Assembly (NCBI GenBank): GCA_007127095.1
Contig: SKZY01000443.1
Coordinates: 1-36,464 of the forward strand
Direction of reading: 5' to 3'
DNA length: 36,464 nt
Source of the DNA: Planctomycetaceae bacterium
GTDB lineage: Bacteria > Planctomycetota > Planctomycetia > Pirellulales > Pirellulaceae
Below the pieces are notes generated by a model, which was not told the DNA's origin, did not search any database, and saw nothing but the letters and a program-made list of their open reading frames with translations. The translations under genes and the position numbers were made by a program. Positions 984 to 30,120 of this stretch are shown here, one piece after another. The stretch's first letter is position 1. Every line of letters starts with the position of its first letter.

Positions 984-2147
984 TCACTCGGTCCGCCCTC
1001 GCCAGGCGACTTGCCGGCCGAGCGAGCGGTTGACCAACGCGATCCACTGGAGGGCGACGAACAGCGTCAACGCGGCCGGGTGGAAGACGACACCGAGCCA
1101 CGATTGGTCGAACCGAGCCGCGGCGAGTACGCGAGGCAGGTAGGAGATGGCGATCGCTAGCGTGGCGATCACGGCAGCGAGCCACTGAGCGGTTCCGACG
1201 GCGGCCAGCAGCGTGATCCAGGGCAAGCAGGCTCCACCCAGCAAAATCGTCGTGAAGGGGATGATCAACCGTGGCGACGCGATCCCCTCGGTAGCGTTTT
1301 TCAGCAGTCCGCGAATCACCTCGCCGGCCCGCTGATACATCCGACAAGACGCGATCGGCGTACCATCGACGACGTCGGTCGCCAACCCCGCAGCTCGGTA
1401 GGCGGCGGGCAACTTGAGCCCGTCATGCCGCGAACCACGGATCGCCCGATGGGTGCCGGCGGCGTCGTAATCGGGCCGCCGAGTCAGGAACAGCTGGCCA
1501 CAACCGGCGGCGTAGGCCGGCAACCGGCTGGCACGCATCCGGTCAATCGGCAAAAAACCGAGCAGGATAAAGTGCATCAACGGAATCAACCAGCATTCCA
1601 GCCAGCTGCCAGTCAGCTGTTTCGGAAAGGCACTCAACAACGCCACATCAACCGTATCTTGATAAGCGACCAGCCGTACCAGCGCGTCCGGTTGCAATCG
1701 GACGTCGGCATCGATGAACGCGAAGCGATCGTAGCGGGCGGCAGCGGCGAGTTGATAGCAAGCAAACTGCTTACCGTTCCAGCCTTCCGGTAACGCTTCG
1801 CCGGCGATTCGACGGACACGGCGGTCTCGAGCAGCGATCTCGTCGACGATCGCCGCGGTGGCATCAACGCTGTGATCATCCAACACGACCACTTCGATCT
1901 CGACCCCGCGGCTGGCCAACGCCGCCGCCACCGAAGCGGCGATCCCGGCCGCTTCGTCCCGCGCCGGGATCAGCAGCGAGACCGCCTGCCGCTGATCGGT
2001 CGTATCACCAGAATCGTCTGCGGAGTGGGTGAGTTCCCGGATCGGGACTTCGGGCGGCGGCAAGAACCGGCCGAGGTTGCGGAGAAACATTGCGGCGGGG
2101 ATCGCGGCCGACACCAATGCAGCCCAGGCCAGAGTCGTGACGAGCAT
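984..2147 (-). CDS. Family 2 glycosyltransferase, CrtQ/HpnB-like, membrane-associated
   Basis: A GT-A glycosyltransferase expected to move a sugar from a nucleotide donor to a lipid acceptor at the membrane. An N-terminal hydrophobic segment is followed by the GT2 signature (LLIPARDEA, VVLDDHSVD, and a DxD-like FIDADVRL). The C-terminus holds hydrophobic helices, as in 4,4'-diaponeurosporenoate glycosyltransferase (CrtQ) and the hopanoid-associated HpnB. The track starts at a TTG at 2204. I prefer the ATG at 2147, whose first base is also the last base of the upstream acyltransferase stop (TAATG), a typical translational-coupling junction; this gives 387 aa. It sits with a desaturase and an acyltransferase, which supports a glycosylated and acylated carotenoid product. 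That product is inferred from context; a hopanoid or other lipid acceptor is possible. Confidence 0.85.
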   Translation of the reverse strand: MLVTTLAWAALVSAAIPAAMFLRNLGRFLPPPEVPIRELTHSADDSGDTTDQRQAVSLLIPARDEAAGIAASVAAALASRGVEIEVVVLDDHSVDATAAIVDEIAARDRRVRRIAGEALPEGWNGKQFACYQLAAAARYDRFAFIDADVRLQPDALVRLVAYQDTVDVALLSAFPKQLTGSWLECWLIPLMHFILLGFLPIDRMRASRLPAYAAGCGQLFLTRRPDYDAAGTHRAIRGSRHDGLKLPAAYRAAGLATDVVDGTPIASCRMYQRAGEVIRGLLKNATEGIASPRLIIPFTTILLGGACLPWITLLAAVGTAQWLAAVIATLAIAISYLPRVLAAARFDQSWLGVVFHPAALTLFVALQWIALVNRSLGRQVAWRGRTE

Positions 2148-15806: not shown

Positions 15807-15819
15807 TTAAATAAAGGTG

Positions 15820-16359
15820 ATGGATGAAATCAGTCGCCACGAACCGCCTACTTTGCGTTACCTGGAACTGGTAACGCAGTCGCAGCGGACGCTCTACAGC
15901 GTTCTCTGGTCGTTGTTGCGCGATCTGCACGATGTGGACGACGTGTTGCAAGAGACCAATGCGGTTCTGTGGCAGAAAGCCGCCGAATTCGATCCCTCAC
16001 GCGATTTTCTGCCCTGGGCGCTACGGATTGCTCAATTGCAGGTGATGGCCTTTCGCAAGCGACAACAGCGAAGCCGGCTGGTATTTGACGACGAGCTGGT
16101 CGCGGCGCTGGTTGATCAGAGCGTTGCCGAAGCCGGCAGCGTCGAGCCGCGGCGGCGGGCCTTGGCGGAGTGCCTGCAGAAGCTGAGCTTCGAGCAGCGG
16201 CGGTTGGTCGTACGGCGGTACGAGCCGGGCGGGTCGGTCAATGACTTGGCATCCCAGCAGGGGCGCTCGCCGAAGGCAGTCTCCGAGGCGCTACGCAGGA
16301 TTCGCGCAGCACTGCTGGACTGTATCGAGAAAACACTGGCGCGGGAGGCCCATGCATGA
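15820..16359 (+). CDS. ECF-type sigma-70 factor, Rhodopirellula/Verrucomicrobium family
   Basis: A 179-aa alternative sigma factor that directs RNA polymerase to a small regulon. Region 2 is visible as LYSVLWSLLRDLHDVDDVLQ (core-binding helix and DDVLQET), then FLPWALRIAQLQVMAFRKRQ. Region 4 is LQKLSFEQRRLVVRRYEPGGS followed by the helix-turn-helix VNDLASQQGRSPKAVSEALR. The GTG at 15817 and ATG at 15820 are adjacent in frame; the ATG is chosen, although AAAGG is rather close to it. The stop overlaps the FecR gene start by four bases (ATGA), the classic arrangement of a sigma factor with its membrane regulator. In planctomycetes such pairs precede DUF1501/DUF1553 or, as here, DUF1552 genes. 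No signal or membrane segment. Confidence 0.92.
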   Translation: MDEISRHEPPTLRYLELVTQSQRTLYSVLWSLLRDLHDVDDVLQETNAVLWQKAAEFDPSRDFLPWALRIAQLQVMAFRKRQQRSRLVFDDELVAALVDQSVAEAGSVEPRRRALAECLQKLSFEQRRLVVRRYEPGGSVNDLASQQGRSPKAVSEALRRIRAALLDCIEKTLAREAHA

Positions 16360-17765
16360 GTCGAACGTCCGATGGGGAACTGGAACGGCTGTTCAGCGCT
16401 AGCGTTGACGGGTTGCTAAGCGAGCCCGAAGAGTCGGCGCTGTCCGAGCGACTACGCAATGACGCCGCGGCTCGACGGCTGTATTTGCGGTTCATGCAGT
16501 TGCACGCGGAGCTTCACTGGGATCATGGTGTTTCGGCCGCCCTGCTGGTCGAATCATCGTTCGAGGCCGGTGCGACACCTGCAGATGGTCCTTCGCGGGA
16601 TGACGTGCGGAGGGCCAATCGTGCGACGTGGTACGTACTGGCCTTGATGAGCACGGCCGCGGGTGTGCTGTTGGCCATTACGATTTCCCTCCTGCGGGAC
16701 CGTGCGACGCCAGCGGTAGTGCCGTCGACGATTGCCACGGTCGAATCGGTACAGGGAGCGGTCATATTTCGATCGGCTCACGAAGAACAACTCTTGGTTG
16801 ATCGTGAGTCGCAGGCGTTGTCGGCCGGAACGCTGCTGCTGGAGGGCGAGGATTCGGCCGTGCAGTGCCGGTTGTTGGACGGGACGCTGATCATGCTGAC
16901 GGGCGATGCCGAGGCGCACATCGCGGACGACGGCCGGAAACGGATCCGGTTGTCGCGCGGCTTGCTGACGGCTGAAGTTCAGCCACAGTCGGCCGCCGCA
17001 CCGATGTTGGTCGAGACCCCGACCGCGAGGGTCGAGGTGTTGGGGACGGTGGTCACGCTATCGGCCGAGCCGGACCGAACCAGTGTGCGCGTCGATTCCG
17101 GCCGTGTGCGTATGGCTCGGCTGGTGGACGGCCGCGAGGTCGAAGTGGCCCGCGATCATGCCTGCGTCGCGTCGTTGGACGCCCGTGAAGAGCTGCGTCC
17201 GCATCGCACCTCGGCCGCCGCTAGCCACTGGCGGCAAACATTTGTCGAACCGCCTCCATCCCGCTGGAAGGGCCAATGGCAGGCTCCCGTGGGTGACGAG
17301 CCGGGCCGGATGCGAGCGGTTCCCTGCGTCGTAGGACGCAAGGATGAAGCGATGCCGGTGGTCCATTTCGGCGTCTCCGTCCGCCGTGTCGAGGGCGTCG
17401 ATTTGGGGCAACTGCCGGCCGACGGCACACTGTGGATCAAGTATCGCCTCGAGCGGCCGAGTCCACTGCGGATCATGCTGGGCGTCAACCGTGGCGACGG
17501 CCGCTTCGGAGGCAACTTCGAGGTCAAGCTGGGATCGAAGACGACGGTCGTGGCCGAGGACCGCTGGCAATGGCTCGAGATTCCTCTGTCCCGATTGAAG
17601 CCGCTGGTGTCGCGATTTCCGGAAATGGCCGAGGGTGACCGGCCGTACTTGATTCTGTTTACCACGTTTGAAGACGACGGCGGTCTGGAGATCGCCGAAC
17701 TCGGCATTACCGAAACGGGCATTACCGAGCTGGGCATTACCGAACCGGAGGACAACCGCCGATGA
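16356..17765 (+). CDS. FecR-type transmembrane regulator of the ECF sigma factor
   Basis: A 469-aa single-pass membrane protein, probably the anti-sigma/sensor partner of the preceding sigma factor. Residues 1-60 form a cytoplasmic helical region (ELERLFSASVDGLLSEPEE) of the kind that binds ECF sigma factors. A membrane helix lies at about 92-113 (WYVLALMSTAAGVLLAITIS). The FecR domain follows (about 126-260), with LSRGLLTAEVQ and TARVEVLGTVVTLSAE. A C-terminal beta-rich domain (about 290-450) resembles a carbohydrate-binding or LamG-like sandwich (LWIKYRLERPSPLRIMLGVN). The last 20 residues contain three copies of a G-I-T-E unit encoded by a 15-bp repeat. It overlaps the sigma and DUF1552 genes by four bases each, so expression is tightly coupled. 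The ligand is unknown. Confidence 0.86.
   Translation: MSRTSDGELERLFSASVDGLLSEPEESALSERLRNDAAARRLYLRFMQLHAELHWDHGVSAALLVESSFEAGATPADGPSRDDVRRANRATWYVLALMSTAAGVLLAITISLLRDRATPAVVPSTIATVESVQGAVIFRSAHEEQLLVDRESQALSAGTLLLEGEDSAVQCRLLDGTLIMLTGDAEAHIADDGRKRIRLSRGLLTAEVQPQSAAAPMLVETPTARVEVLGTVVTLSAEPDRTSVRVDSGRVRMARLVDGREVEVARDHACVASLDAREELRPHRTSAAASHWRQTFVEPPPSRWKGQWQAPVGDEPGRMRAVPCVVGRKDEAMPVVHFGVSVRRVEGVDLGQLPADGTLWIKYRLERPSPLRIMLGVNRGDGRFGGNFEVKLGSKTTVVAEDRWQWLEIPLSRLKPLVSRFPEMAEGDRPYLILFTTFEDDGGLEIAELGITETGITELGITEPEDNRR
17703..17747 (+). repeat. Three 15-bp tandem repeats inside the 3' end of the FecR gene
   Basis: The units GGCATTACCGAAACG, GGCATTACCGAGCTG and GGCATTACCGAACCG follow each other without gaps. 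They are in frame (15 bp = 5 codons), so copy-number change would lengthen or shorten the C-terminus without breaking the gene. They end 14 bases before the coupled DUF1552 start. Confidence 0.85.
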
Positions 17766-19054
17766 TTCACTTTGACACGATCCGTCGCCGCAGTTTCTTT
17801 TACGGGGCCGGAGTGACGGTTGCGTTGCCGTTCCTCGAGTCGTTGGCCCCGTGCACCGGCCTGGCCACCGAGCCTTCGGCAGCGCCGCCGCGGCGGTTTG
17901 CCTTCATCTACACGCCCAATGGCTACTGGCAGGAAACGTTTCTTCCCGCACCGGTCGTCGGCGACTGGACCGCGACGCCGACGCTCGGGCCGCTGGCGCC
18001 GGTTCGCGAGCACGTCACGCTCGTCACCGGCCTGGATCGCCAGTTCGTCCCCGGCACCGGCGTGCATGCCCAGGCCGGTTGCTGCTGGCTGACCAGTTCA
18101 GCTCCTCAAGAGACGCTCGACGGCGGCTTCCCCACCAACATCACGCTGGATCAACTACTGGCGAAGGAACTGGGCCGGCAAACGCTGCTGCCGTCGCTGG
18201 AACTGAGCTGCAACGACTTCGTCGACAACCGAGAGACGAAGTATTTTGAATCGATCTCCTGGTACGGCCCCGGCTATGCGGCCAACACGGAGAAGGACCC
18301 GCGCGCGGTGTTCGAGCGGCTCTTCGGCAAGCCGCAGTCGGCGGCGACGCGAAGCGTCTTGGACGTCGTGCTCGCCGACGCCCAAGCGCTCCACCGGCGT
18401 CTGGGACGAGACGACCAGGCAAAGCTCGACGAGTTTCTCGGCAGCGTCCGCGAAGTCGAGCAGCGCATGGAACGGGCCGAGAAGCTGGCCGCTTCGCGTG
18501 AACAATCGCCTCTGACCCAACCGGCCGGAATTCCCGAGAAACGCGGCGATTACCTGCGGTTGATGGCCGACCTAACGATCCTCGCGTTTCAGCAGGATCT
18601 GACGCGTGTTGTCACGCTGGTCGTCGATCCGGAACGCTGGGACTCGCCCCGCATGTACCACGACCTGTTCGATTCGCCGCAGAACCACCACGTGCTGACG
18701 CACACCAAGGGGGACGAGGCGAAGGAGAAACTGGCCCGCATCGATCGCTTTCATGTCGAGTTTTACGCCGACGTCGTGAGGCGGCTGGCGGCGATCCCTG
18801 AAGGCGACGGCACGCTGCTCGATTCGTGCTGCGTCGCCATGGGCAGCGGTCTGAGCGACGGCGATTCGCACAACTACCGCGATTTGCAGGTGCTGCTGGC
18901 CGGCCGAGCCGCCGGAGCCGTCGCGCCGGGGCGGCATCTGCACTACGAGGGGCACCGCCCCCTGGCGGACCTTTGGCTGACGCTCGGCAAAATCGGCGGG
19001 ATGAAGCAAACACGGTTTGCGGACAGCACAGCGTTATTGGACGAATTGTCATGA
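17762..19054 (+). CDS. Tat-exported DUF1552 protein
   Basis: A 430-aa protein of the DUF1552 family, abundant in planctomycetes and some myxobacteria and biochemically uncharacterised. The N-terminus DTIRRRSFFYGAGVTVALPF is a twin-arginine signal, implying export after folding, possibly with a cofactor. The typical family blocks follow: RRFAFIYTPNGYW, TLVTGLDRQFVPG, HAQAGCCWLTSS, LPSLELSC, and later DYLRLMADLTILAFQQDLTRV and CCVAMGSGLSDGDSHNYRDL. The ATG overlaps the FecR stop by four bases. In most planctomycete genomes the family is paired with a DUF1592-family gene, which is also present here but two positions downstream, after an esterase. It resembles DUF1501 (sulfatase-fold) proteins in genomic role, but a catalytic site cannot be named. 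Confidence 0.9.
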   Translation: MIHFDTIRRRSFFYGAGVTVALPFLESLAPCTGLATEPSAAPPRRFAFIYTPNGYWQETFLPAPVVGDWTATPTLGPLAPVREHVTLVTGLDRQFVPGTGVHAQAGCCWLTSSAPQETLDGGFPTNITLDQLLAKELGRQTLLPSLELSCNDFVDNRETKYFESISWYGPGYAANTEKDPRAVFERLFGKPQSAATRSVLDVVLADAQALHRRLGRDDQAKLDEFLGSVREVEQRMERAEKLAASREQSPLTQPAGIPEKRGDYLRLMADLTILAFQQDLTRVVTLVVDPERWDSPRMYHDLFDSPQNHHVLTHTKGDEAKEKLARIDRFHVEFYADVVRRLAAIPEGDGTLLDSCCVAMGSGLSDGDSHNYRDLQVLLAGRAAGAVAPGRHLHYEGHRPLADLWLTLGKIGGMKQTRFADSTALLDELS

Positions 19055-19100
19055 ATCGTCGTGAGCGACGGCATCGTCAAGCCGCTGGTTTCCGTATGAA

Positions 19101-19313
19101 ATGTCAGCCGATCTGGGACAATCAGATAAACACCAAGTGCAACGCGAATAAACGCACCTGGCGGCAATCATTGACCAATTTCACTCCGTGGAGCAGTTCG
19201 AGGAATACGGCTTGCGGCATCTGGTCAAGCTCAACCGCATTGGATTCGATCAAATGTTCCAACGTCTCGGCAGGCGTGGGCTTTCGCCGTGGAAAACTCG
19301 AAGTGTTTATCGC
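19101..19313 (+). pseudogene. Decayed short reading frame between the DUF1552 and esterase genes
   Basis: About 260 nt separate the DUF1552 stop from the esterase ATG in an operon otherwise joined by four-base overlaps. In the esterase frame an ATG at 19101 reads MSADLGQSDKHQVQRE, hits one TAA, then continues THLAAIIDQFHSVEQFEEY and GLRHLVKLNRIGFDQMFQRL without a further stop into the esterase. The second part looks protein-like (amphipathic, normal residue mix), so this may be the remnant of a gene broken by one stop, or the debris of an insertion. I do not recognise the family. The ORF track's 19188 start for the esterase uses this remnant and should not be taken as its N-terminus. Confidence 0.35.
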
Positions 19314-20300
19314 ATGTTAAAGCACATTTCATTCTTGCTTGTCTCGGTGAGTGTTTGGCCGTTGTACGCCGACGCGCTGCCGCCTGCGGAGCCGTTGGTT
19401 GTCGGACTTTGGCCGAAAGAACCGCCGGGTCCACCCGCCGTGACTAACGGACCGGAGCAGGATCTGACGAAGCCTGAAGATCGGCTGATCGCGGGACGGC
19501 GGATCATCAAGCTGGGCAACGTCAGCGACCCGGAGATGCACGTCTTCCTGCCGCCGGCCGAGCGAGCAAACGGCGGTGCGGTCGTTGTCTGTCCCGGCGG
19601 CGGGTTCAGTATCCTGGCTTGGGATTTGGAAGGGACAGAGGTGGCCGAGTGGCTCAACAGCATCGGTATGGCCGCGGTGGTCGTCAAATACCGCGTGCCG
19701 ACTCGGCAGCACGGGGTGCCCGGCAAATGGCAAGGTCCGGTGATGGATGCTCAGAGAGCACTGAGTCTCACGCGCCACCGAGCGGCCGAGTGGAACATCG
19801 ACCCGCAGCGTATCGGCATTCTCGGCTTTTCTGCGGGTGGCGAGACGGCGGCGCTAACGGCGGTAAAGAACGGCCGGCGGCTGTACGAGCCGACCGACGA
19901 GGCGGATCGGACGCCGTGCGTGGCGAACTTCGCGCTGCTGATCTATCCCGGCGGGATTGCCGAGAAAGACGGCGTTCTCAAGGAGGATTATCGTGTGGAC
20001 AAGCAGACGCCGCCGATGTTCTTCGTCCATGCAGCCGACGACAATGTCACTTGCCAAAGCAGCGTCGCATTGTTCTCGGCGCTGCAAAAGGCCGGAGTGC
20101 CGGCCGAGCTGCACATCCACACCAGCGGCGGCCACGGCTACGGACTGCGTGCCACAAACCTGCCGGTTACGCATTGGCCGCACCATGCCGAGACGTGGCT
20201 GAAGCAGTTGGGCTTGACGGCGTCATCCGCATCGGTCGCCAGTGAACCGCGGGACGGCAACCCCGTCGATCAGCTGCCGATCAAAGGAGAAAATCAGTGA
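19314..20300 (+). CDS. Exported alpha/beta-hydrolase, acetyl-xylan-esterase/lipase-like
   Basis: A 328-aa exported serine hydrolase. From the ATG at 19314 it has a signal peptide (MLKHISFLLVSVSVWPLYADA); the track's longer start would place a charged stretch in front of it. The fold shows an oxyanion block VVCPGGGFSILAW (about 91-103), the nucleophile elbow GFSAGG (Ser about 173), Asp in HAADDN (about 242-243) and His in SGGHGYG (about 274), so the triad is complete. PMFFVHAADD and the spacing match the planctomycete 'alpha/beta hydrolase' group that includes acetyl-xylan and related sugar-ester esterases. Its stop overlaps the GTG of the DUF1592 gene. Location in the sigma-FecR-DUF1552 cluster suggests ester removal from a polymer outside the cytoplasm. 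The substrate is not known. Confidence 0.85.
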   Translation: MLKHISFLLVSVSVWPLYADALPPAEPLVVGLWPKEPPGPPAVTNGPEQDLTKPEDRLIAGRRIIKLGNVSDPEMHVFLPPAERANGGAVVVCPGGGFSILAWDLEGTEVAEWLNSIGMAAVVVKYRVPTRQHGVPGKWQGPVMDAQRALSLTRHRAAEWNIDPQRIGILGFSAGGETAALTAVKNGRRLYEPTDEADRTPCVANFALLIYPGGIAEKDGVLKEDYRVDKQTPPMFFVHAADDNVTCQSSVALFSALQKAGVPAELHIHTSGGHGYGLRATNLPVTHWPHHAETWLKQLGLTASSASVASEPRDGNPVDQLPIKGENQ

Positions 20301-22438
20301 AATCATCGCGGATTCGTTATCCTATCGCCGCCTGGCTGTGGCTGATGGTTGGTATCGCTGCCGCGGCGGATCGGGGTCAATACGCTCGCGACGTTCGACC
20401 AATTCTGCAAAATTACTGCTTCGACTGCCACTACGACGGCGACGATGCCGAAGGGGGCGTGAACCTGGAGCGGTTCGAATCCGAAGAGCAGGTGCTCAGC
20501 GACCGCGGGATCTGGAAATACGTTTTTGACAAAGTCGAGTCGCGGCAGATGCCGCCGCCGAAGGAATCGGCGTTGCCCACCGACGCCGAGCGGCGGCGGA
20601 TTCTCGACTGGATCGCAGGCATCGCTGCGGCCCCCGACCCGGCGCTCGGTGCGATCGATCCGGGTAAGCCGATTCTGCGTCGACTGACGCGGCTGGAGTA
20701 CAACAACACGGTCCGCGATCTGCTGGCACTTGATATCGACCTGTTCATGTTCCCGGAACGGCTTCCTTTGGCCAACAAGAACTACTTCCAGCCAGAAACG
20801 GGAAAACTCGAGTCGCCGCTGACCGTTCGCGTCCGGGAGTATGGCGGCAAATATCCGGTGCTGCTCCCTGCCAGCGGCCTGCCGGGTGACAACCGGGCCG
20901 AACACGGTTATCGCAATCGGGGCGATGCGATGAATGTCTCGCCGCTGTTGCTGGAGAAGTACGTAGCCCTGGCGAGCGAGATCGTCCATCATCCGGATTT
21001 GCCCCGGCACAGTGCGGTGTTTGCCTGGTTGCTGGGGATCGATGCGGAACCGGCACAGGCTGCCCCTGCAGTTGGACCGCGTGAACGTCTGATCGTCTTC
21101 TTAAGACACGCTTTTCGCCGACCGCTAACCGACGACGAAATTGTGCCGTACGTTGAATTGTTCGAATCCGCTCGGCAATCCGGCCGGTCGGAAGCCGACG
21201 CCATCCGCGTCGCCGTACAAGCCGTCTTGTCATCGCCCAGCTTTTTGTTCCTGGCCGAATCCGCCAATCCCAGCGGCACCGAGTTACCCCTTCCCGCGGC
21301 GAGCCACTCACCAACGGTTCGTCCGCTGACCGACCATGAACTGGCCAATCGTCTGAGTTACTTCCTCTGGTCGTCGATGCCCGACGAGGAACTGATGAAG
21401 TTGGCCGACAGTGGGGAGCTGAGTGACGAAGCGACACTGACCGCCCAGACGCTGCGGATGCTCCGCGATCCCAAGTCGCGCGAGCTGAGCGAATCGTTCG
21501 CGGTCCAGTGGCTCAGGCTCGATCAGTTGTACACCTCCCAGCCGGACCGGCGGCTGTTCAAGCAGTATTATTCGGGCCCGCAGGGGAAGAACACGCTGCA
21601 CGCCTCGCAGCTTGTCGAGGCCCTGCTGCTGTTTGAAACCGTGCAGGTTGAGAATCGCAGCATCCTCGATTTGATCGCAGCCGATTACACCTGGGTCAAT
21701 CCTCGGCTGGCCCGCCTGTACGAATTCGATCTGGACCAGCAACTCGATCCTCCAGAGGCTGGTAGAGCCGTAGGCAATCGCGAACAGCCCCCCTCCGACC
21801 GTAGCTCGAACAACCTCTGGTGGCGGCTGCCACTGGCCGACTCCTCGCGGGGCGGCTACCTGACCATGTCCGCCCCGCTGACGGTCACGTCGCTGCCGTT
21901 TCGCACCAGCCCGGTCAAACGCGGCGCGTGGATGTTGGAGACCATCTTCAACCGCCCGCCGACCGAGCCGAAGGTGGCATTCGCGTTTGATGACGACACT
22001 CAGGAATCTGCCGCGGCCGAGAGCATTCGTGCCCGTTTCGAGGCCCACCGCAGCCAGGCGGCCTGCTATTCGTGCCACATTCGGATCGACCCGCCCGGCT
22101 TCGCCCTAGAGCATTTCGACGCTATCGGCGCCTGGCGCGAGTTCGATGGCGGTCAGGCGGTGGACGCGCGGGGCGAGTGGAACGGCCGCGTCTTCGACGG
22201 TCCCGCCGAGTTCAAAAGCCTGCTCCGCCATGACCCACACGAGTTCACCCGCGGATTCATCGAGCACCTGCTCAGCTACGCCCTGGGCCGAAAATTGGAA
22301 CTGGCCGATCTGCCGATCGTCGAGCAGATTCAGCAAAAGGCTCAAGACTCCGATTATCGGCTACAACAGATCGTCTGTGAGGTCGTGGCTTCTTACCCGT
22401 TTCGTCATCTGCGGAGCGACATTGGACGACCGGATTGA
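20297..22438 (+). CDS. DUF1592/1588/1585/1587/1595 protein with cytochrome-like CxxCH motifs
   Basis: A 713-aa exported multi-domain protein. After a signal peptide, a cytochrome-like (PSCyt1) segment has CFDCH at residues 41-45. DUF1587 follows (RRLTRLEYNNTVRDLL, about 128-145), then DUF1595 (RERLIVFLRHAFRRPLTDDE, about 263-285), DUF1592 (LTDHELANRLSYFLWSSMPD, about 345-370), and DUF1588 (GGYLTMSAPLTVTSLPFRTS, about 525-545), with a second haem-type motif CYSCH at 590-594 followed by IDPPGFALEHFD. DUF1585 closes the protein (about 635-705). It starts at a GTG with AAAGGAG seven bases upstream, overlapping the esterase stop (GTGA). Two CxxCH motifs suggest covalent haem and electron transfer. 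The substrate is unknown; a role with DUF1552 is inferred from recurrent pairing. Confidence 0.92.
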   Translation: MKSSRIRYPIAAWLWLMVGIAAAADRGQYARDVRPILQNYCFDCHYDGDDAEGGVNLERFESEEQVLSDRGIWKYVFDKVESRQMPPPKESALPTDAERRRILDWIAGIAAAPDPALGAIDPGKPILRRLTRLEYNNTVRDLLALDIDLFMFPERLPLANKNYFQPETGKLESPLTVRVREYGGKYPVLLPASGLPGDNRAEHGYRNRGDAMNVSPLLLEKYVALASEIVHHPDLPRHSAVFAWLLGIDAEPAQAAPAVGPRERLIVFLRHAFRRPLTDDEIVPYVELFESARQSGRSEADAIRVAVQAVLSSPSFLFLAESANPSGTELPLPAASHSPTVRPLTDHELANRLSYFLWSSMPDEELMKLADSGELSDEATLTAQTLRMLRDPKSRELSESFAVQWLRLDQLYTSQPDRRLFKQYYSGPQGKNTLHASQLVEALLLFETVQVENRSILDLIAADYTWVNPRLARLYEFDLDQQLDPPEAGRAVGNREQPPSDRSSNNLWWRLPLADSSRGGYLTMSAPLTVTSLPFRTSPVKRGAWMLETIFNRPPTEPKVAFAFDDDTQESAAAESIRARFEAHRSQAACYSCHIRIDPPGFALEHFDAIGAWREFDGGQAVDARGEWNGRVFDGPAEFKSLLRHDPHEFTRGFIEHLLSYALGRKLELADLPIVEQIQQKAQDSDYRLQQIVCEVVASYPFRHLRSDIGRPD

Positions 22439-22595: not shown

Positions 22596-24968
22596 CTAAC
22601 GGACCGTGATCGTCGGTTCGTTTCCCGGATCGATCGGCGGCAACGCGTCATCGAAGCGGGTCGGGTCATTGATCCGGTTGACGTATCGCCACATCGCTAC
22701 GGTCAGGATGAAGATGATCGCCAATGTCACCGCGCCGTCGACCAATAGCCGGCGTTTGAGTTCACCGACCGGGGCGAACACCTTCGACAAGCGGTATTGC
22801 ACCAACACGAGCAACTCGGTCGTCGGTACCGTCGAGCGGTCTTTGGCGGCGACACGGTCATCTTCGGTGGTCGTCGGCGTGCCATCGGTCCCCGTGCGGG
22901 TAGCGTCGAGTGGGACGACCGATGAAAACGAGCCGCTGGGGGTGAATCGCCCGTTGGGGCCGACGATTTCTCTCGGCAGCGACACGGGCGCGACCGCGGC
23001 GAGCCATTTGCCGGCGAACAGTTCGCCACCCGGAGCGGCCGCCATCGGGTCGTGGTAGTCGACATCGCCGCCGGCGAGCAATTCATCGAGTACTCGAGGT
23101 TCGACCTGAAAGTGTTCTTCTCCTAACGGTGAAACGCTGTCGGCATGGCGATCCATCAACGGGTGCTGCAAGACCGTTCCTCTCAGTGGGCCTTCTCGAA
23201 CATCGACAACCACGGCCAATTGATCACTCAGTTTGCCATCGCTGGTCGATTCGAAATCGCCCAGGTTGGTCGTGATCACGAAGACGCCGTCGGGCGGTCG
23301 CAGTTCGGTTTCCGGGTCGCCGGCCGCCCGCTCGGGGGTGAGGTAAATCGGCATGCTGAAAGCCAATTTCCACAACCCGGTGGCGGTGCTTTGGAAGGCC
23401 CGTGAAACGTGCGGCCCGGTCAACGGGGTGATCGACCTAGGCGGCGTATCGCGAGGCAATTCGTTCCGTTCGCCGTGAAAGTAGGTACGGAAGGCAAAGT
23501 TCATACCGGTACTCAGCTGCGCCTCCTCGACATCGGTGTCGAACGCGATCGCTACGATCGTCCCTTGGGCGTCGGTGATGAACATCGTCGAAATATCGGG
23601 CAGCAAATTGTCGGGGTCATCGAGGTAGTCGGTTAAACGCAGGCTGAGTTGGGCATCGAGCGGGAGGCGATCGGCGTGCCGCAGGAAGTTTTCTCGATCG
23701 CCGGCCGCTTCTGCGGGGGCATCGATGATCCGTTGTCGCATTTGAGTCATTTCGTCCGACGCCAGTAGGTCACGAAAGACGGCACGAGTGGCGCCATCAG
23801 CCGCTTCACGGGCCAAGACGTGAAAGTAGCTCTGCAGTTCGTTTTCCAATGACCGGGCCGCAAACCGGGCGGCCATCTGGTTGCTGGCCCGCGCCTCGGT
23901 TCGCAACGCTTCGGTCGCGCGGCTGCTGGTTTCGAGAATGCTGTAGGCGGCGAAGCCGCCGCTGAACAGCATCAACAACAGCGGGCCGACGATGCCCAAC
24001 AGCATCAACGGACGCCGGGCCCGCGCTTGGTCTCTTTGGTCGAGCGCCGCCAACACCTGTTGAACGTTGGCGAAACGTTGCGCCGGATCGGGGGCGAGAC
24101 AGCGATCGACGATCGCCGCCAACGACCGGTCGACGCCACGACGACCGCGATGAGCGATCGGACGGACGTCATTCACGATCGCGGTGCGATAATGTTCGAG
24201 CCGCTTGGGCAGCGACCCGGCGGTGTCGATCCGACCGAGGAGCGATTCGTCACGGTGGGGAATTTTGCCGGTCAGCATTCGGTACAGGATCACGCCCAAG
24301 GCATAGACGTCCCACCGCGCATCCGGGGCTGCGTCGAGGTTCGCTTGCTCAGGAGCCATGTAAAACAAGGTGCCCAGCGAAGGCGATTGGTCGTGTGACA
24401 TCCGGCTCTGACCAAAATCGGCCAGGCGTGGCGAATTGTCGGAATCGAGCAGGATATTGCCCGGTTTGAGGTCACAGTGCAGCACCCCGCGACCGTGGCA
24501 ATGGTTCAAACCGACACAGATCTTGCGAAAGATATCGACCGATTGGCTGACCGGCAGTCGGCCGGTCGCCTGCAGCAAATCCTCCAGCGATCCGTTGGGT
24601 AGGAACTCCATCACGTAGAATGGCGGTTCGGCATCCCAGCCGACATCCAACACCTGCACGATCGACCGTTCGGCCGACAACTGCACCAGATTCTTCACCT
24701 CACGGGACAGCAGCGACCAATTGACGCCGCCACGGTGCAGGTAGAATTTGACGGCGACCGGGCGTCCCGTGTTCAAGTCATGGCCAAACCAGACCTGGCC
24801 GAACGTCCCAGCCCCCAAGAAACGATCGAGCCGATAACCCGGCAGCACCGCCGGTGGAGCCGTCGGCCGACGACTCAATTCCTCGGCTTGCAGCTGTTCC
24901 CCCAAGCTTTGCTGTTCTGTCTGATCGCCAATCACAAGTTCCGTATTCCTCTCAGCATGCTGCCCCAT
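22596..24968 (-). CDS. Transmembrane Ser/Thr protein kinase with extracytoplasmic sensor domain
   Basis: A 790-aa Hanks-type kinase. Glycine loop GAGTFGQVWFG (about 52-62), ATP lysine in VAVKFY (74), catalytic loop VLHCDLKPGN (164-166 is HCD, not HRD, so a non-RD kinase), DFG (184-186) and MAPEQ (about 204-208) are all present, so activity is likely. A membrane helix at about 321-343 (LLGIVGPLLLMLFSGGFAA) leads to a region of about 400 residues outside the membrane, with a long helix and PAS-like folds (DISTMFITDAQGTIVAIAFD, FRTYFHGER) like a double-Cache sensor. A second helix lies near the C-terminus (LAIIFILTVAMW, about 741-762) with a short inner tail. I use the ATG at 24968, which overlaps the divergent amidohydrolase ATG; the track start at 25055 lies inside that gene. 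The ligand is unknown. Confidence 0.9.
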   Translation of the reverse strand: MGQHAERNTELVIGDQTEQQSLGEQLQAEELSRRPTAPPAVLPGYRLDRFLGAGTFGQVWFGHDLNTGRPVAVKFYLHRGGVNWSLLSREVKNLVQLSAERSIVQVLDVGWDAEPPFYVMEFLPNGSLEDLLQATGRLPVSQSVDIFRKICVGLNHCHGRGVLHCDLKPGNILLDSDNSPRLADFGQSRMSHDQSPSLGTLFYMAPEQANLDAAPDARWDVYALGVILYRMLTGKIPHRDESLLGRIDTAGSLPKRLEHYRTAIVNDVRPIAHRGRRGVDRSLAAIVDRCLAPDPAQRFANVQQVLAALDQRDQARARRPLMLLGIVGPLLLMLFSGGFAAYSILETSSRATEALRTEARASNQMAARFAARSLENELQSYFHVLAREAADGATRAVFRDLLASDEMTQMRQRIIDAPAEAAGDRENFLRHADRLPLDAQLSLRLTDYLDDPDNLLPDISTMFITDAQGTIVAIAFDTDVEEAQLSTGMNFAFRTYFHGERNELPRDTPPRSITPLTGPHVSRAFQSTATGLWKLAFSMPIYLTPERAAGDPETELRPPDGVFVITTNLGDFESTSDGKLSDQLAVVVDVREGPLRGTVLQHPLMDRHADSVSPLGEEHFQVEPRVLDELLAGGDVDYHDPMAAAPGGELFAGKWLAAVAPVSLPREIVGPNGRFTPSGSFSSVVPLDATRTGTDGTPTTTEDDRVAAKDRSTVPTTELLVLVQYRLSKVFAPVGELKRRLLVDGAVTLAIIFILTVAMWRYVNRINDPTRFDDALPPIDPGNEPTITVR

Positions 24969-26232
24969 GACACGTTCGTTTTCGTTCCTGTTGATTCTAT
25001 CGCTGATCGTCAACCGAGGAGTCATTCCGACCGCGGCAACCGCGGCTGACGACATCGCGGCCGACCGAAAAACCGACGATCAAGCTACCGACAACCAGGG
25101 CGCCGACGTGCCGCTCCCGCTCGACGGCGAAGCGGGGCGCGACCTGTCGGTTCGACTGTTCACCCCCCGCAGTCGGCTGGTCACGCCGCGGACCGAGATC
25201 AGCGGGGCGAAGTTTCCGGTCGTCGACGTGCATACCCATTTTTTCTACAAGTTACGACACAATGAGCAGGCGTTGGACGATTTTGTCAGGTTGATGGACC
25301 GTAACGACATTCGCGTCTGCGTCTCGCTCGACGGGCGGCTCGGCGGACAATTAGACAGTCACATCGATTTTTTACATCGGCGATATCGGGACCGATTCGT
25401 GATTTTCGCCAATATCGACTGGCAGGGTGATGGCGACCCTCAAGACCCGGCCACGTGGGACTGCCTCCGCCACGGATTCGCTGACCGCACCGCCGCCCGC
25501 TTGAGCGCCGCCGTCGACCGCGGGGTTGCCGGGTTGAAAGTCTTCAAGCGATTGGGCTTGGAATACAAGGATGCCGAGGGGGAGTTGCTGCGGATCGACG
25601 ACCCGAGGTGGGACCCGATCTGGGCGGCCTGCGGACGATTGGGAATCCCGGTATTGATCCACAGCGGCGATCCGGCGGCCTTCTTCGACCCGGTCGATCG
25701 CTTCAACGAACGCTGGGAGGAACTCAGCCGCAACCCGAGTTGGAGCTTTCACGGCCCTGAGTTTCCGGCGCTGGACGAACTGCTGCAGGCCCGCAACCGC
25801 GTGATCGCTCGCCACCCGCAAACCCGCTTCATCGCCGCTCACCTGGCCAGCAGTGAGCACGACCTAGAGACGCTCTCGGTTTGGCTGGACACCTATCCCA
25901 ATCTGTATCTCGACATCGCATCGCGGATCAGCGAATTGGGGCGGCAACCTTATTCGGCACGCAAGTTTCTGATCCGACACGCCGACCGCGTCCTCTTCGC
26001 CACGGATGGCCCGTGGCCCGAACAGCGGTTGCACGCCTATTGGCGATTCTTGGAAACACGGGACCAAGCCTTCGACTACAGCGAGAAAACGCCTCCTCCA
26101 CAGGGTTTGTGGCAGATTCACGGACTCGGTCTGCCCGATGATACGCTGCGAAAAATTTATTACCGCAACGCCGCCGAATTGATACCTGGCATCGCAGACA
26201 GGCTGGGCGACGTCGAGACGGAGGTCGATTGA
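24967..26232 (+). CDS. Exported amidohydrolase-family (amidohydrolase_2) metalloenzyme
   Basis: A 421-aa exported TIM-barrel hydrolase or decarboxylase of the amidohydrolase superfamily. The N-terminus is a signal peptide (MTRSFSFLLILSLIVNRGVI, cleavage near ATAAD). The metal site is visible as HTH (89, 91), then a Lys in GLKVFKR (191 or 194), LIHSGDP (His 232), AAHLASS (His 292) and FATDGPW (Asp 347), the order of amidohydrolase_2 proteins. Its ATG shares two bases with the kinase start on the other strand, so both promoters probably lie inside the opposite gene or the messages are nearly leaderless. A lipoprotein gene follows after 63 nt. Related planctomycete proteins are annotated only as amidohydrolases, and the substrate cannot be read. 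Confidence 0.88.
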   Translation: MTRSFSFLLILSLIVNRGVIPTAATAADDIAADRKTDDQATDNQGADVPLPLDGEAGRDLSVRLFTPRSRLVTPRTEISGAKFPVVDVHTHFFYKLRHNEQALDDFVRLMDRNDIRVCVSLDGRLGGQLDSHIDFLHRRYRDRFVIFANIDWQGDGDPQDPATWDCLRHGFADRTAARLSAAVDRGVAGLKVFKRLGLEYKDAEGELLRIDDPRWDPIWAACGRLGIPVLIHSGDPAAFFDPVDRFNERWEELSRNPSWSFHGPEFPALDELLQARNRVIARHPQTRFIAAHLASSEHDLETLSVWLDTYPNLYLDIASRISELGRQPYSARKFLIRHADRVLFATDGPWPEQRLHAYWRFLETRDQAFDYSEKTPPPQGLWQIHGLGLPDDTLRKIYYRNAAELIPGIADRLGDVETEVD

Positions 26233-26295: not shown

Positions 26296-27273
26296 ATGGC
26301 CGGACAATCGTTATTGGCCGATTCAACAGAACAGTCCCTTCCTCCGACGCATGAAGCCGTGTTTGTGAAACCGAGTTCAGGAAAGCCGCTACGGTTCCTC
26401 TGGTCCATCGGACTGGTCGTCTTGCTGACCGGATGCGGTGCGACGCGGTTGACCGATACTTCACGGAGCGCTTCGGAAGAATTGTTGCTCTCCCACGCGA
26501 TCGATCGGGCGGTCGGTCAGCTCAATCTGACGGTGCTTGCCGGACAAGACGTCTATCTCGACACGACCAACTTGGGCGACGTCACCTACAGCGGCTACCT
26601 GACCGGCGCGTTGCGCCAGCACCTGCTGGCCAGCGGGGCTCGGCTGGTTCCCGAACTTGAACAAGCCGCGGTCGTTGTCGAGGCCCGGGCCGGTTCGGTC
26701 GCGACGACGCGTCACGATTCGATGATCGGGATTCCCGAGACTCAGGTTCCGGCAGTTCTCGTCGGCGGTTCGGGGACGTTGCCCGAGATCGCGTTGATCA
26801 AAAAGGCGATCCACATCGGCGTCGCCAAGGTCGGCGTGTTCGCTTATCGGACGGTCGACGGTGTCGGGGTTTGGCAATCGGGGATGCGGGAAACCCAAAG
26901 TATCAGCGAAAGCAATTGGTACTTCGGCACGGGACCGTTTCAAACCGGTGACGTGGTCATCAACGGGACTCCCGACGTCCGACGCGGTTTGCGTCCGACA
27001 CGTCGTTCGCATCGTCGCAACAGCCCTTTGGAATACGAAAATTGGTTTGGCGAAATGCCGATCGACCAACCGCGGGACCGGGCGGCAGCGAGCGACTCGT
27101 CGGCGGGAATCTCGGACACCGAAGATGCCGACTCGGCAGGCCAGGCGGACGGTTCAGCGCCCGATGGCGACGAAACGCTCCCGGAGCCGATCGAACCGGG
27201 CACCCCCGAAGCAGCGCCGGGTGAGGAACCACTTTGGCACTGGGTCACGCCGGCGGCGTTTCGTCAGGATTGA
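26296..27273 (+). CDS. Lipoprotein of unknown function, DUF6655-like
   Basis: A 325-aa lipoprotein: a hydrophobic run LRFLWSIGLVVLLTGC ends in the lipobox LTGC and is followed by GATRLTDTSRSASEELLLS. The N-domain (about 55-215) has the pattern of a planctomycete family I recall as DUF6655 (SEELLLSHAIDRAV, LAGQDVYLDTTNL, and a conserved NWYFGTGPF). The C-terminal 90 residues are acidic, Pro/Ser-rich and look disordered. The start is uncertain: the ATG at 26296 gives a long signal region, and GTG codons about 21 and 23 codons later would give a more usual length. The last 29 bases overlap the end of aroK on the other strand. No function is known to me. Confidence 0.65.
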   Translation: MAGQSLLADSTEQSLPPTHEAVFVKPSSGKPLRFLWSIGLVVLLTGCGATRLTDTSRSASEELLLSHAIDRAVGQLNLTVLAGQDVYLDTTNLGDVTYSGYLTGALRQHLLASGARLVPELEQAAVVVEARAGSVATTRHDSMIGIPETQVPAVLVGGSGTLPEIALIKKAIHIGVAKVGVFAYRTVDGVGVWQSGMRETQSISESNWYFGTGPFQTGDVVINGTPDVRRGLRPTRRSHRRNSPLEYENWFGEMPIDQPRDRAAASDSSAGISDTEDADSAGQADGSAPDGDETLPEPIEPGTPEAAPGEEPLWHWVTPAAFRQD

Positions 27274-27859
27274 TCAGGCTGGGCGGCAACGGCGCGGCCC
27301 GGTCGGCTCGAATCGCCGCCAACGTTTGCTGGGCGATCTCGTCGATTTCGCGACCGACGGTGTCGATTCGGTAGCGGGCGACCTGATCGTAGAGCGGTTG
27401 TCGCTCCGCCAATAGCTTTTCGATCTCTTCTCGCTGTGGCAGTCCGGTCAGTGCGGGTCTTCGTTCGGCGGTACTGGCGTCACGTTTCAATCGCTCCAAA
27501 ACGGTGGTGGCGTCGACTTGCAACCAGACGCAGACGCCGGTGTCAGCGATCAATCGGCGGTTGTTCGGCCGCAACACGGCACCGCCACCGAGCGAAATCA
27601 CGGCTGGCGGTTGGCTGGCGATCGCCGCCAGCGTCGCCTCCTCCCGATCGCGGAACTCGGCTTCACCGCCCGACGCAAAAATCTCTCGGATCGAACGGCC
27701 CACGCGTGACTCGATCGCATCATCGAGATCGATCCATGGCCGACGTAGCCGGGTCGCAAGCAGTTGACCGACGGAGCTTTTTCCCGAACCTCGGTAACCG
27801 GCCAGATAGAGATGGCATGCAGATCGGGAAATATCGGTGCGGTCGGGATCACGGTTCAT
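27245..27859 (-). CDS. aroK: Shikimate kinase
   Basis: Phosphorylates shikimate at O3 in the chorismate pathway; cytoplasmic P-loop kinase of 204 aa. Walker A is GYRGSGKSS (21-29), the shikimate-binding Asp lies in IDLDDAIE (about 43-50), the Gly-rich block is SLGGGAVLR (about 89-97), and the LID arginine lies in RRPALTG. The ATG at 27859 overlaps the stop of the dihydrouridine synthase gene by four bases (ATGA), which fixes the start; the track's 16 extra residues come from the upstream gene in another frame. The 3' end overlaps the convergent lipoprotein gene by 29 bases. aroK and aroL cannot be told apart by eye. Confidence 0.93.
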   Translation of the reverse strand: MNRDPDRTDISRSACHLYLAGYRGSGKSSVGQLLATRLRRPWIDLDDAIESRVGRSIREIFASGGEAEFRDREEATLAAIASQPPAVISLGGGAVLRPNNRRLIADTGVCVWLQVDATTVLERLKRDASTAERRPALTGLPQREEIEKLLAERQPLYDQVARYRIDTVGREIDEIAQQTLAAIRADRAAPLPPSLINPDETPPA

Positions 27860-28902
27860 GATCCACCTTCTTGTTGCGCCCCGTGGACTTCCGGACCGAC
27901 GTAGCATCCCGGGCGATCATCGGCGTAATGGGTTTGCAGAACCGACTCAACTTCGGCCATCGAGCCGACCCCGACCAAGGCCGCCCGGACGGTGGCATGA
28001 TCGGGATGACTGGCCGAGTACTTGATGCAGAACTTGCGCATCATCACGGTCGAGCGTTTTTCACCGTAGGTCTGCTGACAGAGTCGGTAGTGTTCACGGA
28101 TCACCTCGGCCTGTTCGGCGAGTGTCGGTGGCGGCGGCATCGGTTCGCCCCGCCAAAGTGCATCGACCTGACGAAAGATCCACGGATTGCCGATCGCACC
28201 GCGCGCGATCGTCACCCCGTCGACACCGGTTTGATCGATCATCCGCAAGCAATCATCGGCGGTGAACAGGTCGCCACTGCCGAAGATCAACCGCTGCGGG
28301 CCGACGTGGCGTTTGACTTCGGCCAAAAACGGCCAACTGCTGGGACCGACATAGCGTTGTTGGACGGTCCGGCCGTGAACCGTGACGGCGGCGACACCGA
28401 GAGAGAACGCGCCATCGAGGATCCGGAAAAAGTGGTCGAGAGCTTCGGCGGTATCGTCGATCCCGCGGCGCATCTTGACCGTCACCGGGCGGTCAGCCGG
28501 GACGGCATCGCGGGTCCGAGCGACGATTTCGAGCGCCACCTCGGGTTGAGAGAGATGAAAACCGCCACGGCACCGACCGAGCACCTTTTTCACGGGACAG
28601 CCGAAGTTGATGTCGATGACATTGAACCCGGCAGCGGCCAATTTGACCGCGCCGGCGGCGAATTGTTCGGGTTCACTGCCCATCAGTTGCCCACCTACCG
28701 GGCTTTCCTCTGGCGATATTTCCAAGAAATGTCGGGTCTTGGGGCGATCGGTCAACTGGACCAAAAACTGGTCCAGCATCACCTCACAGAGCGTGTAAGC
28801 GGCGCCGTGTCGACGGGCGAGTACCCGCATCGGCAGGTCGCTGTAACCACTCAATGCGGCTTGAAAAAACGGGCTGGCGATCGACACGTCACCGATTTTC
28901 AA
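27856..28902 (-). CDS. dusB: tRNA-dihydrouridine synthase (DusB-like)
   Basis: Flavin enzyme that reduces uridine to dihydrouridine in the D-loop of tRNA. The 348-aa protein has the FMN TIM barrel start SPFFQAALSGYSDLPMRVLA, CEVMLDQFLVQ, the catalytic Cys block INFGCPVKKVLGRCRGG, VTVKMRRGID, VTVHGRTVQQRY and FGSGDLFTADDC, followed by GVTIARGAIGNPW and a C-terminal helical tRNA-binding domain. The track extends to 29166 through non-native sequence. A TTG at 28902 has AGGGGG six bases upstream and begins SLKIGDVSIASPFF at the usual position, so it is chosen. It is coupled to aroK by an ATGA overlap and divergent from galM. DusB is the likeliest subgroup. Confidence 0.92.
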   Translation of the reverse strand: MKIGDVSIASPFFQAALSGYSDLPMRVLARRHGAAYTLCEVMLDQFLVQLTDRPKTRHFLEISPEESPVGGQLMGSEPEQFAAGAVKLAAAGFNVIDINFGCPVKKVLGRCRGGFHLSQPEVALEIVARTRDAVPADRPVTVKMRRGIDDTAEALDHFFRILDGAFSLGVAAVTVHGRTVQQRYVGPSSWPFLAEVKRHVGPQRLIFGSGDLFTADDCLRMIDQTGVDGVTIARGAIGNPWIFRQVDALWRGEPMPPPPTLAEQAEVIREHYRLCQQTYGEKRSTVMMRKFCIKYSASHPDHATVRAALVGVGSMAEVESVLQTHYADDRPGCYVGPEVHGAQQEGGS

Positions 28903-29082
28903 CGATCGCCCCCTGTCGGCGACGGCAACGCCATGGCACGATTTCGAGAAGGGGTCGTCCCCCCGAGCGAGCTTCGCCGGAAGCCGTCCGCTCTCGGTCG
29001 AATGACGGTCATCGTGTCGGTCGCCGCTCGTTACTTCCGCCTGATTCACGCGGACACTCCGAAATACAAGTCTGGAAAGGCC
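28903..29082. promoter_or_regulatory. Divergent promoter region between dusB and galM
   Basis: About 180 nt separate the two divergent starts and must hold both promoters. Apart from the AGGGGG box serving dusB and a GGAAAGG box serving galM at its ends, no sigma-factor consensus or palindrome was recognised. Confidence 0.35.
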
Positions 29083-30120
29083 ATGCAGATTCAATCGGTC
29101 CCCTTCGGACAGACGCCCGACGGTGAACCCGTCGCCCTGTTCACGCTCACCAATCACCGCGGCCATTCGGTCCGGTTGACCAACTACGGCGCCGTCCTGA
29201 TGGACGTGAACGTCGCTGATGCCGCCGGCAAGATCGATAACGTCAATCTGTCGTTCGACTCACTGCCGCCCTATCTCGATCGCCATCCCCATTTCGGATC
29301 GACGATCGGCCGGTTCTGCAACCGGATCGGTCACGGCCAGTTTACGATCGACGGCGGATCGTACCAGGTGACCAAGAATCTCGGCAAACACCATCTGCAT
29401 GGCGGGACGATCGGTTTCGATCACCTGCTCTGGCAGGCCGAGATATACAACGACGGCGACGTCGCCGGGGTCCGGTTCGAATTGGTCAGCCCAGACGCAA
29501 TGGAAGGCTTTCCGGGAACGCTCAAGGCGACCGCCGATTACAGTTTCAGCAATGACGACGAGCTGTCGATGACGTTTTCCGCCACCACCGATGCGCCGAC
29601 TCACGTCAACCTCTGCAACCACAGCTACTGGAACCTCGGCGGCGCCGGCAGCGGTCTGGCTACCGATACGGTACTCACGATCGAAGCCGATGAGGTGTTG
29701 GATGTCGACGCCGACCTGATCCCGACCGGCCGGATTAACTCGGTCGATGGCAGCGGACTCGACTTCCGGCAAGCGACGCCGCTGGCCGAACGACTCGATC
29801 AGTTCGCGGCAACCAAAGGTTACGACCACTGTTTCGTGATCCGTGGGAATGCCGGTGAACTGCGTTTAGCGGCCCGGGCCGAACACCCGGGGTCGGGGCG
29901 AGTGATGGAAGTCTGGACCACTCAGCCGGCGATGCAGTTGTACACGGGCAATCACCTACCCGGAAACGCTCTGTCGGGCGGTTATGGAGCGCACGAAGCG
30001 TTCTGTTTGGAAACGCAACATCATCCCGATGCCCCGAACCATCCGCATTTTCCGTCGACTTTGTTGCGGCCTGGCGAGACGTATTCGCAGCGGACCGTGC
30101 ATCGCTTTCTAACCCGTTGA
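29083..30120 (+). CDS. galM: Aldose 1-epimerase (galactose mutarotase)
   Basis: Interconverts alpha and beta anomers of galactose or glucose; 345 aa and no signal peptide, so cytoplasmic. Catalytic blocks are intact: HHLHGGTIGF with the first His (106), NLCNHSYWNLGG with the second His (180), and FCLETQHHPDAPNHPHFP with the catalytic Glu, followed by STLLRPGETY. The track reports one 749-aa ORF from 27871, but its first 404 codons are the antisense of dusB. The ATG at 29083 (MQIQSVPFGQ) has GGAAAGG just upstream and starts at the first beta strand. It is convergent with the lactonase gene, with about 50 nt between stops. Confidence 0.95.
   Translation: MQIQSVPFGQTPDGEPVALFTLTNHRGHSVRLTNYGAVLMDVNVADAAGKIDNVNLSFDSLPPYLDRHPHFGSTIGRFCNRIGHGQFTIDGGSYQVTKNLGKHHLHGGTIGFDHLLWQAEIYNDGDVAGVRFELVSPDAMEGFPGTLKATADYSFSNDDELSMTFSATTDAPTHVNLCNHSYWNLGGAGSGLATDTVLTIEADEVLDVDADLIPTGRINSVDGSGLDFRQATPLAERLDQFAATKGYDHCFVIRGNAGELRLAARAEHPGSGRVMEVWTTQPAMQLYTGNHLPGNALSGGYGAHEAFCLETQHHPDAPNHPHFPSTLLRPGETYSQRTVHRFLTR

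Follow-up and report, generated by a model that had tools for sequence, protein, structure and literature searches.

The locus and its two genes

In the window, the whole stretch of 36,464 nucleotides that was analysed, a transmembrane Ser/Thr protein kinase gene and an exported amidohydrolase gene lie back to back (Table 1). The source organism is a planctomycete, and the two genes form a fairly ordinary compact divergent gene pair. Very probably this Pirellulaceae pair is read from GTG 24935 (-) for the kinase and from ATG 24967 (+) for the amidohydrolase, so that a 31-bp gap separates the start codons. The kinase-strand frame, which also contains ATG 24968 (-), ends at 22596. Next to the pair, positions 15817-22438 (+) hold a co-directional run encoding an ECF sigma factor, a FecR-domain protein, an HXXSHH (DUF1552) protein, a BD-FAE/prolyl-oligopeptidase-like hydrolase and a PSD/PSCyt planctomycete cytochrome protein.

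Table 1. Positions of the genes, start codons and spacer of the divergent pair in the window
Feature	Position	Strand	Basis or remark
Transmembrane Ser/Thr protein kinase	22596..24935	-	779 aa from GTG 24935; PF00069, orthologue start motif
Probable true kinase start codon, GTG	24933..24935	-	V-I-G-D-Q-T-E-Q-Q-S; orthologue comparison
Spacer between the two start codons	24936..24966		31 bp
CATG palindrome	24966..24969		Letters read and ORF frames
Coincidental in-frame ATG on the kinase strand	24968-24966	-	2 bp in common with the amidohydrolase ATG
Amidohydrolase start codon, ATG	24967-24969	+	2 bp in common with the kinase-strand ATG
Exported amidohydrolase (Amidohydro_2)	24967..26232	+	421 aa; frame of 421 codons from ATG 24967, end 26232; PF04909

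The kinase matched PF00069 (Pkinase) with 146.4 bits against a curated cut-off of 31.7. Its layout comprises an N-terminal kinase domain, a transmembrane segment, a dCache-like extracytoplasmic domain and a C-terminal transmembrane segment. The Pfam dCache_1 cut-off (PF02743) was not reached by the protein (14.1 bits versus 45). An AlphaFold2 model of the ectodomain (pLDDT 79.6) found its best PDB matches mainly among dCache chemoreceptor ligand domains (PctA, CtaA, Mlp37), with E values of 3e-5 to 1e-3 and TM-scores by target of up to ~0.6. The model thus predicts a dCache-like fold between two transmembrane segments, which makes it reasonable to call the protein a sensor kinase. It resembles a PknB-type Ser/Thr kinase with a dCache sensor in its PF00069 domain and in its dCache-like C-terminal extracytoplasmic domain, but differs in that the kinase domain precedes the sensor and a second transmembrane segment stands at the C-terminus. 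Of the whole protein, only the kinase part matched the PASTA-kinase model NF033483, at a score below the model cut-off.

The amidohydrolase matched PF04909 (Amidohydro_2) with 100.9 bits against a curated cut-off of 26.4 (1.4e-28). The metal-ligand-type residues H89, H91, H232, H292 and D347, together with K191/K194, were invariant among 17 relatives, as would be expected if the protein is an active PF04909 member. The enzyme thus shares its family and such residues with Amidohydro_2 enzymes such as 2,3-dihydroxybenzoate decarboxylase; unlike them, it carries a signal peptide, and its similarity to solved members is distant and weak (E ~7e-4). Searching solved structures with a profile from the amidohydrolase alignment returned nothing at 1e-5.

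The start assigned to the amidohydrolase in the earlier note, ATG 24967, is well supported. It is the first start after an upstream in-frame stop, it is followed by a Sec-type signal peptide, MTRSFSFLLILSLIVNRGVIPTAATA/ADD (residues ~1-26, read by eye), and the ATG is aligned in all three same-genus genomes compared (the window, G002 and G003). No Shine-Dalgarno (SD) match was found upstream of it, and in a 0.43-Mb sample of contigs SD matches were barely above those of shuffled sequence. In Planctomycetes, few genes are reported to have an SD, and the reported bias upstream of genes fits leaderless or S1-assisted initiation (PMC5397173). Lacking an SD match, the amidohydrolase would initiate in a leaderless or SD-independent manner.

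The kinase start codon

The kinase start had been placed at ATG 24968, on the ground that no other plausible start lay between it and the kinase domain. This was an error, as GTG 24935 and TTG 24902 follow in frame, and both precede the domain, which begins near residue 45 when numbered from ATG 24968. GTG 24935 lies 33 bases downstream of the ATG chosen in the earlier note. Three further starts lie upstream of ATG 24968 in the same frame: TTG 25013, ATG 25025 and ATG 25055.

We compared the start with those of relatives of the pair taken from whole genomes and named contigs, and in each we followed the kinase frame into the stretch upstream of the alignment. The opening residues of nearly every relative follow M/V-x-x-[D/E]-x-T-[E/Q]-x-Q, exactly or with slight variation. 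In 45 of the 66 kinase loci, at least 8 of which duplicate another (the same place fetched twice), a start codon stands exactly 5 residues before the T of T-[E/Q]-x-Q, as it does for GTG 24935; ATG 24968 is 16 residues away from that T. Among the same loci, 29 have no alternative start upstream. When the window kinase was searched against the relatives with tblastn, alignments mostly began between residues 8 and 17 of the long form, which indicates that its 11-residue extension is not conserved.

Within the genus, the junction is intact in three genomes only, including the window (two more genomes assigned to it, G001 and G004, yielded no intact junction). In G002 (UBA6172, DITY01000296) the aligned GTG is the sole possible kinase start, with none upstream, and in G003 the aligned GTG is kept. 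The GTG of the window is preceded by a weak purine stretch, AGAGGAATACGGAACTT, offering a weak SD of 4 matching bases (AGGA at long spacing or GGA close by); the SDs of its congeners, GGAAG and GGGAG, are stronger. Comparing start positions across orthologous pairs thus puts the kinase start downstream of ATG 24968, most likely at GTG 24935, for a predicted protein of 779 aa.

Conservation, spacing and promoters of the pair

The divergent pairing of the two genes proved to be conserved well beyond the genus. Matches were collected with the extracytoplasmic part of the kinase, a query that usually gave one match per genome, and with the amidohydrolase, and the comparison covered the 106 Pirellulaceae genomes present in both match tables. 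The two genes are adjacent and divergent in 73 of these (27 genera), far apart on one contig in 4, and on different contigs in 29, some of which may be assembly breaks. In genus g72 both genes are present yet unlinked in all 13 genomes, including two in which they share one chromosome-size contig. The kinase stands beside the amidohydrolase in Stieleria, in planctomycete TBK1r and in other records titled Rhodopirellula, and it is missing from that place in several records under the names Rhodopirellula, Neorhodopirellula and Bythopirellula. The divergent pairing is old. Loci of the pairing are found at 22596-26232 of the window and in relatives L056-L146. A stop flagged inside the g7 amidohydrolase match turned out to be the normal gene end (checked in one genome, L006).

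The gap between the start codons measures 31 bp in both the window and G003, and 30 bp in G002, although the spacer sequence itself has diverged among the three. Three genomes of genus g7 have a gap of 34 bp. Estimates for other genera range from tens of bp (~30) to more than 500 bp and are approximate, the amidohydrolase starts there having been chosen by a crude hydrophobicity rule.

On account of overlapping start codons, the promoters and leaders of both genes had been proposed to lie inside the opposite gene, unless the messages were leaderless. The overlap itself does not stand, and the proposal survives in a weaker form, because a 31-bp spacer is too short for two core promoters, which must either reach into the opposite gene or leave very short leaders. 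The most likely arrangement, inferred from this spacing, is one in which two face-to-face promoters would each lie partly within the 5' coding end of the opposite gene, and both genes would have short leaders. Polymerase competition or antisense pairing could follow from such a layout, and antisense or competitive control of the kinase and the amidohydrolase is possible. A promoter scan of positions 24750-25200 found no sigma-70-like site. One hexamer picked out by eye, TAGAAT (-) at 24999-24994, matches TATAAT at 5/6 positions; it has no -35 element, lies at chance level and was discarded.

The near-constant gap in the three congeners and in genus g7 would suit a reading in which the close spacing is itself a regulatory device, with overlapping promoters or antisense 5' ends making expression of the two genes mutually exclusive or co-tuned. 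Many bacterial promoters are bidirectional (PMC10268837), and like close divergent pairs with such promoters, the present genes stand back to back with too little room for independent promoters; unlike those pairs, this one yielded no recognisable promoter in the scan. We regard a regulatory role of the spacing as improbable, since gaps elsewhere are estimated to be so much wider, roughly one in three of the compared genomes has the genes non-adjacent, no motif was recognised, and genome compaction also yields close spacing. Other genera have estimated gaps of hundreds of bp, and some have the genes unlinked, so overlap is not required for the role of the pair. Somewhat less likely again is the notion that the genus-specific spacer of ~31 bp, wider in relatives, is a kept bidirectional element, whose two face-to-face promoters would tie expression of the sensor kinase to that of the exported enzyme, either by competition between polymerases or by antisense 5' ends.

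The CATG between the genes

The letters at 24966-24969 are as the earlier note described them: a CATG with antiparallel ATGs in both frames, overlapping by 2 bp. The overlap of start codons fell in two respects. Judged by the orthologues, which assign the kinase start to GTG 24935, the two start codons very probably do not both lie within the CATG; and the overlap is not kept in orthologous pairs, where the aligned site reads GATG in both G003 and G002. Overlapping CATG starts were therefore rejected on the evidence of orthologue N-termini.

We gauged how often such a quartet arises in a baseline sample of 0.43 Mb from the same genome (40 contigs plus the window), using a crude longest-ORF caller. 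Since CATG reads the same on both strands, every ATG after a C carries an antiparallel ATG, and a C precedes 42% of the 115 ATG-first longest ORFs in the sample. A CATG common to both frames near both ends occurred in 3 of 46 divergent longest-ORF pairs, the present pair counted, which, together with the palindromic nature of CATG, makes the coincidence unremarkable. The other two such pairs, from the same genome, are L189, 537-1079 (-) / 1078-2016 (+), and L178, near 6252. About 20% of the 46 divergent pairs overlap under the longest-ORF rule, and this figure shows how frequently the rule over-extends genes at 61% G+C. Elsewhere in the window, the longest ORFs for a shikimate kinase (27245-27907, -) and a dihydrouridine synthase (27856-29166, -) overlap by 52 bp; the true start of the shikimate kinase is probably further in, since its domain begins at residue 39.

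A kinase that does initiate at ATG 24968, through a recent N-terminal extension, would give start codons overlapping by two bases in the present species. The frame is open, ATG starts are stronger than GTG starts, and G003 likewise has an upstream in-frame ATG, at another position, forming another CATG. That quartet lies 6 bp upstream, at a different site from the aligned GATG, and we rejected it as a case of the CATG being kept. The codon aligned to the window ATG is ATC in G003; the extension MGQHAERNTEL of the window is wholly unlike MASVGRRKL of G003, so that the second CATG looks like recurrence rather than conservation; and no such extension is possible in G002. Kinases of other genera begin at the motif, and ATG 24968 is preceded by a 3-base SD match only. 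Initiation at ATG 24968 therefore appears very improbable as the regular start. Given the upstream in-frame ATGs of the window and G003, a longer kinase isoform is compatible with the sequence and conceivable beside the shorter form. Starts still further upstream, at ATG 25025 or 25055, which would make the kinase overlap at length, antiparallel, with the part of the amidohydrolase gene that encodes its signal peptide, can be practically dismissed: the frame is open up to a stop just beyond 25055, but the extension is conserved in no relative and no start exists there in G002 and many others.

Initiation at GTG 24935 leaves the CATG as the amidohydrolase start codon after a C, with an antiparallel ATG falling by chance in the upstream open frame of the kinase, and the apparent overlap of start codons is best regarded as an artefact of start choice. 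Rhodopirellula baltica belongs to the same family as the source organism. It has been reported to hold the most misannotated divergent overlaps, and start misprediction to be the chief cause of false overlaps (PMC2478687). The present case resembles those in that the ORF is extended 5' of its orthologues and a downstream start restores the orthologous length. It differs in that the published work dealt with longer overlaps and with over-use of weak starts, whereas here the weak codon, GTG, is the probable true start and ATG the false one.

For annotation, the kinase should run from GTG 24935. The more useful by-product of the analysis is the conserved pair itself, a Ser/Thr kinase with a putative dCache sensor and an exported amidohydrolase. 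Pirellulaceae have many uncharacterised Ser/Thr kinases, and the pair suggests that an external signal may be linked to an enzyme of the periplasm.
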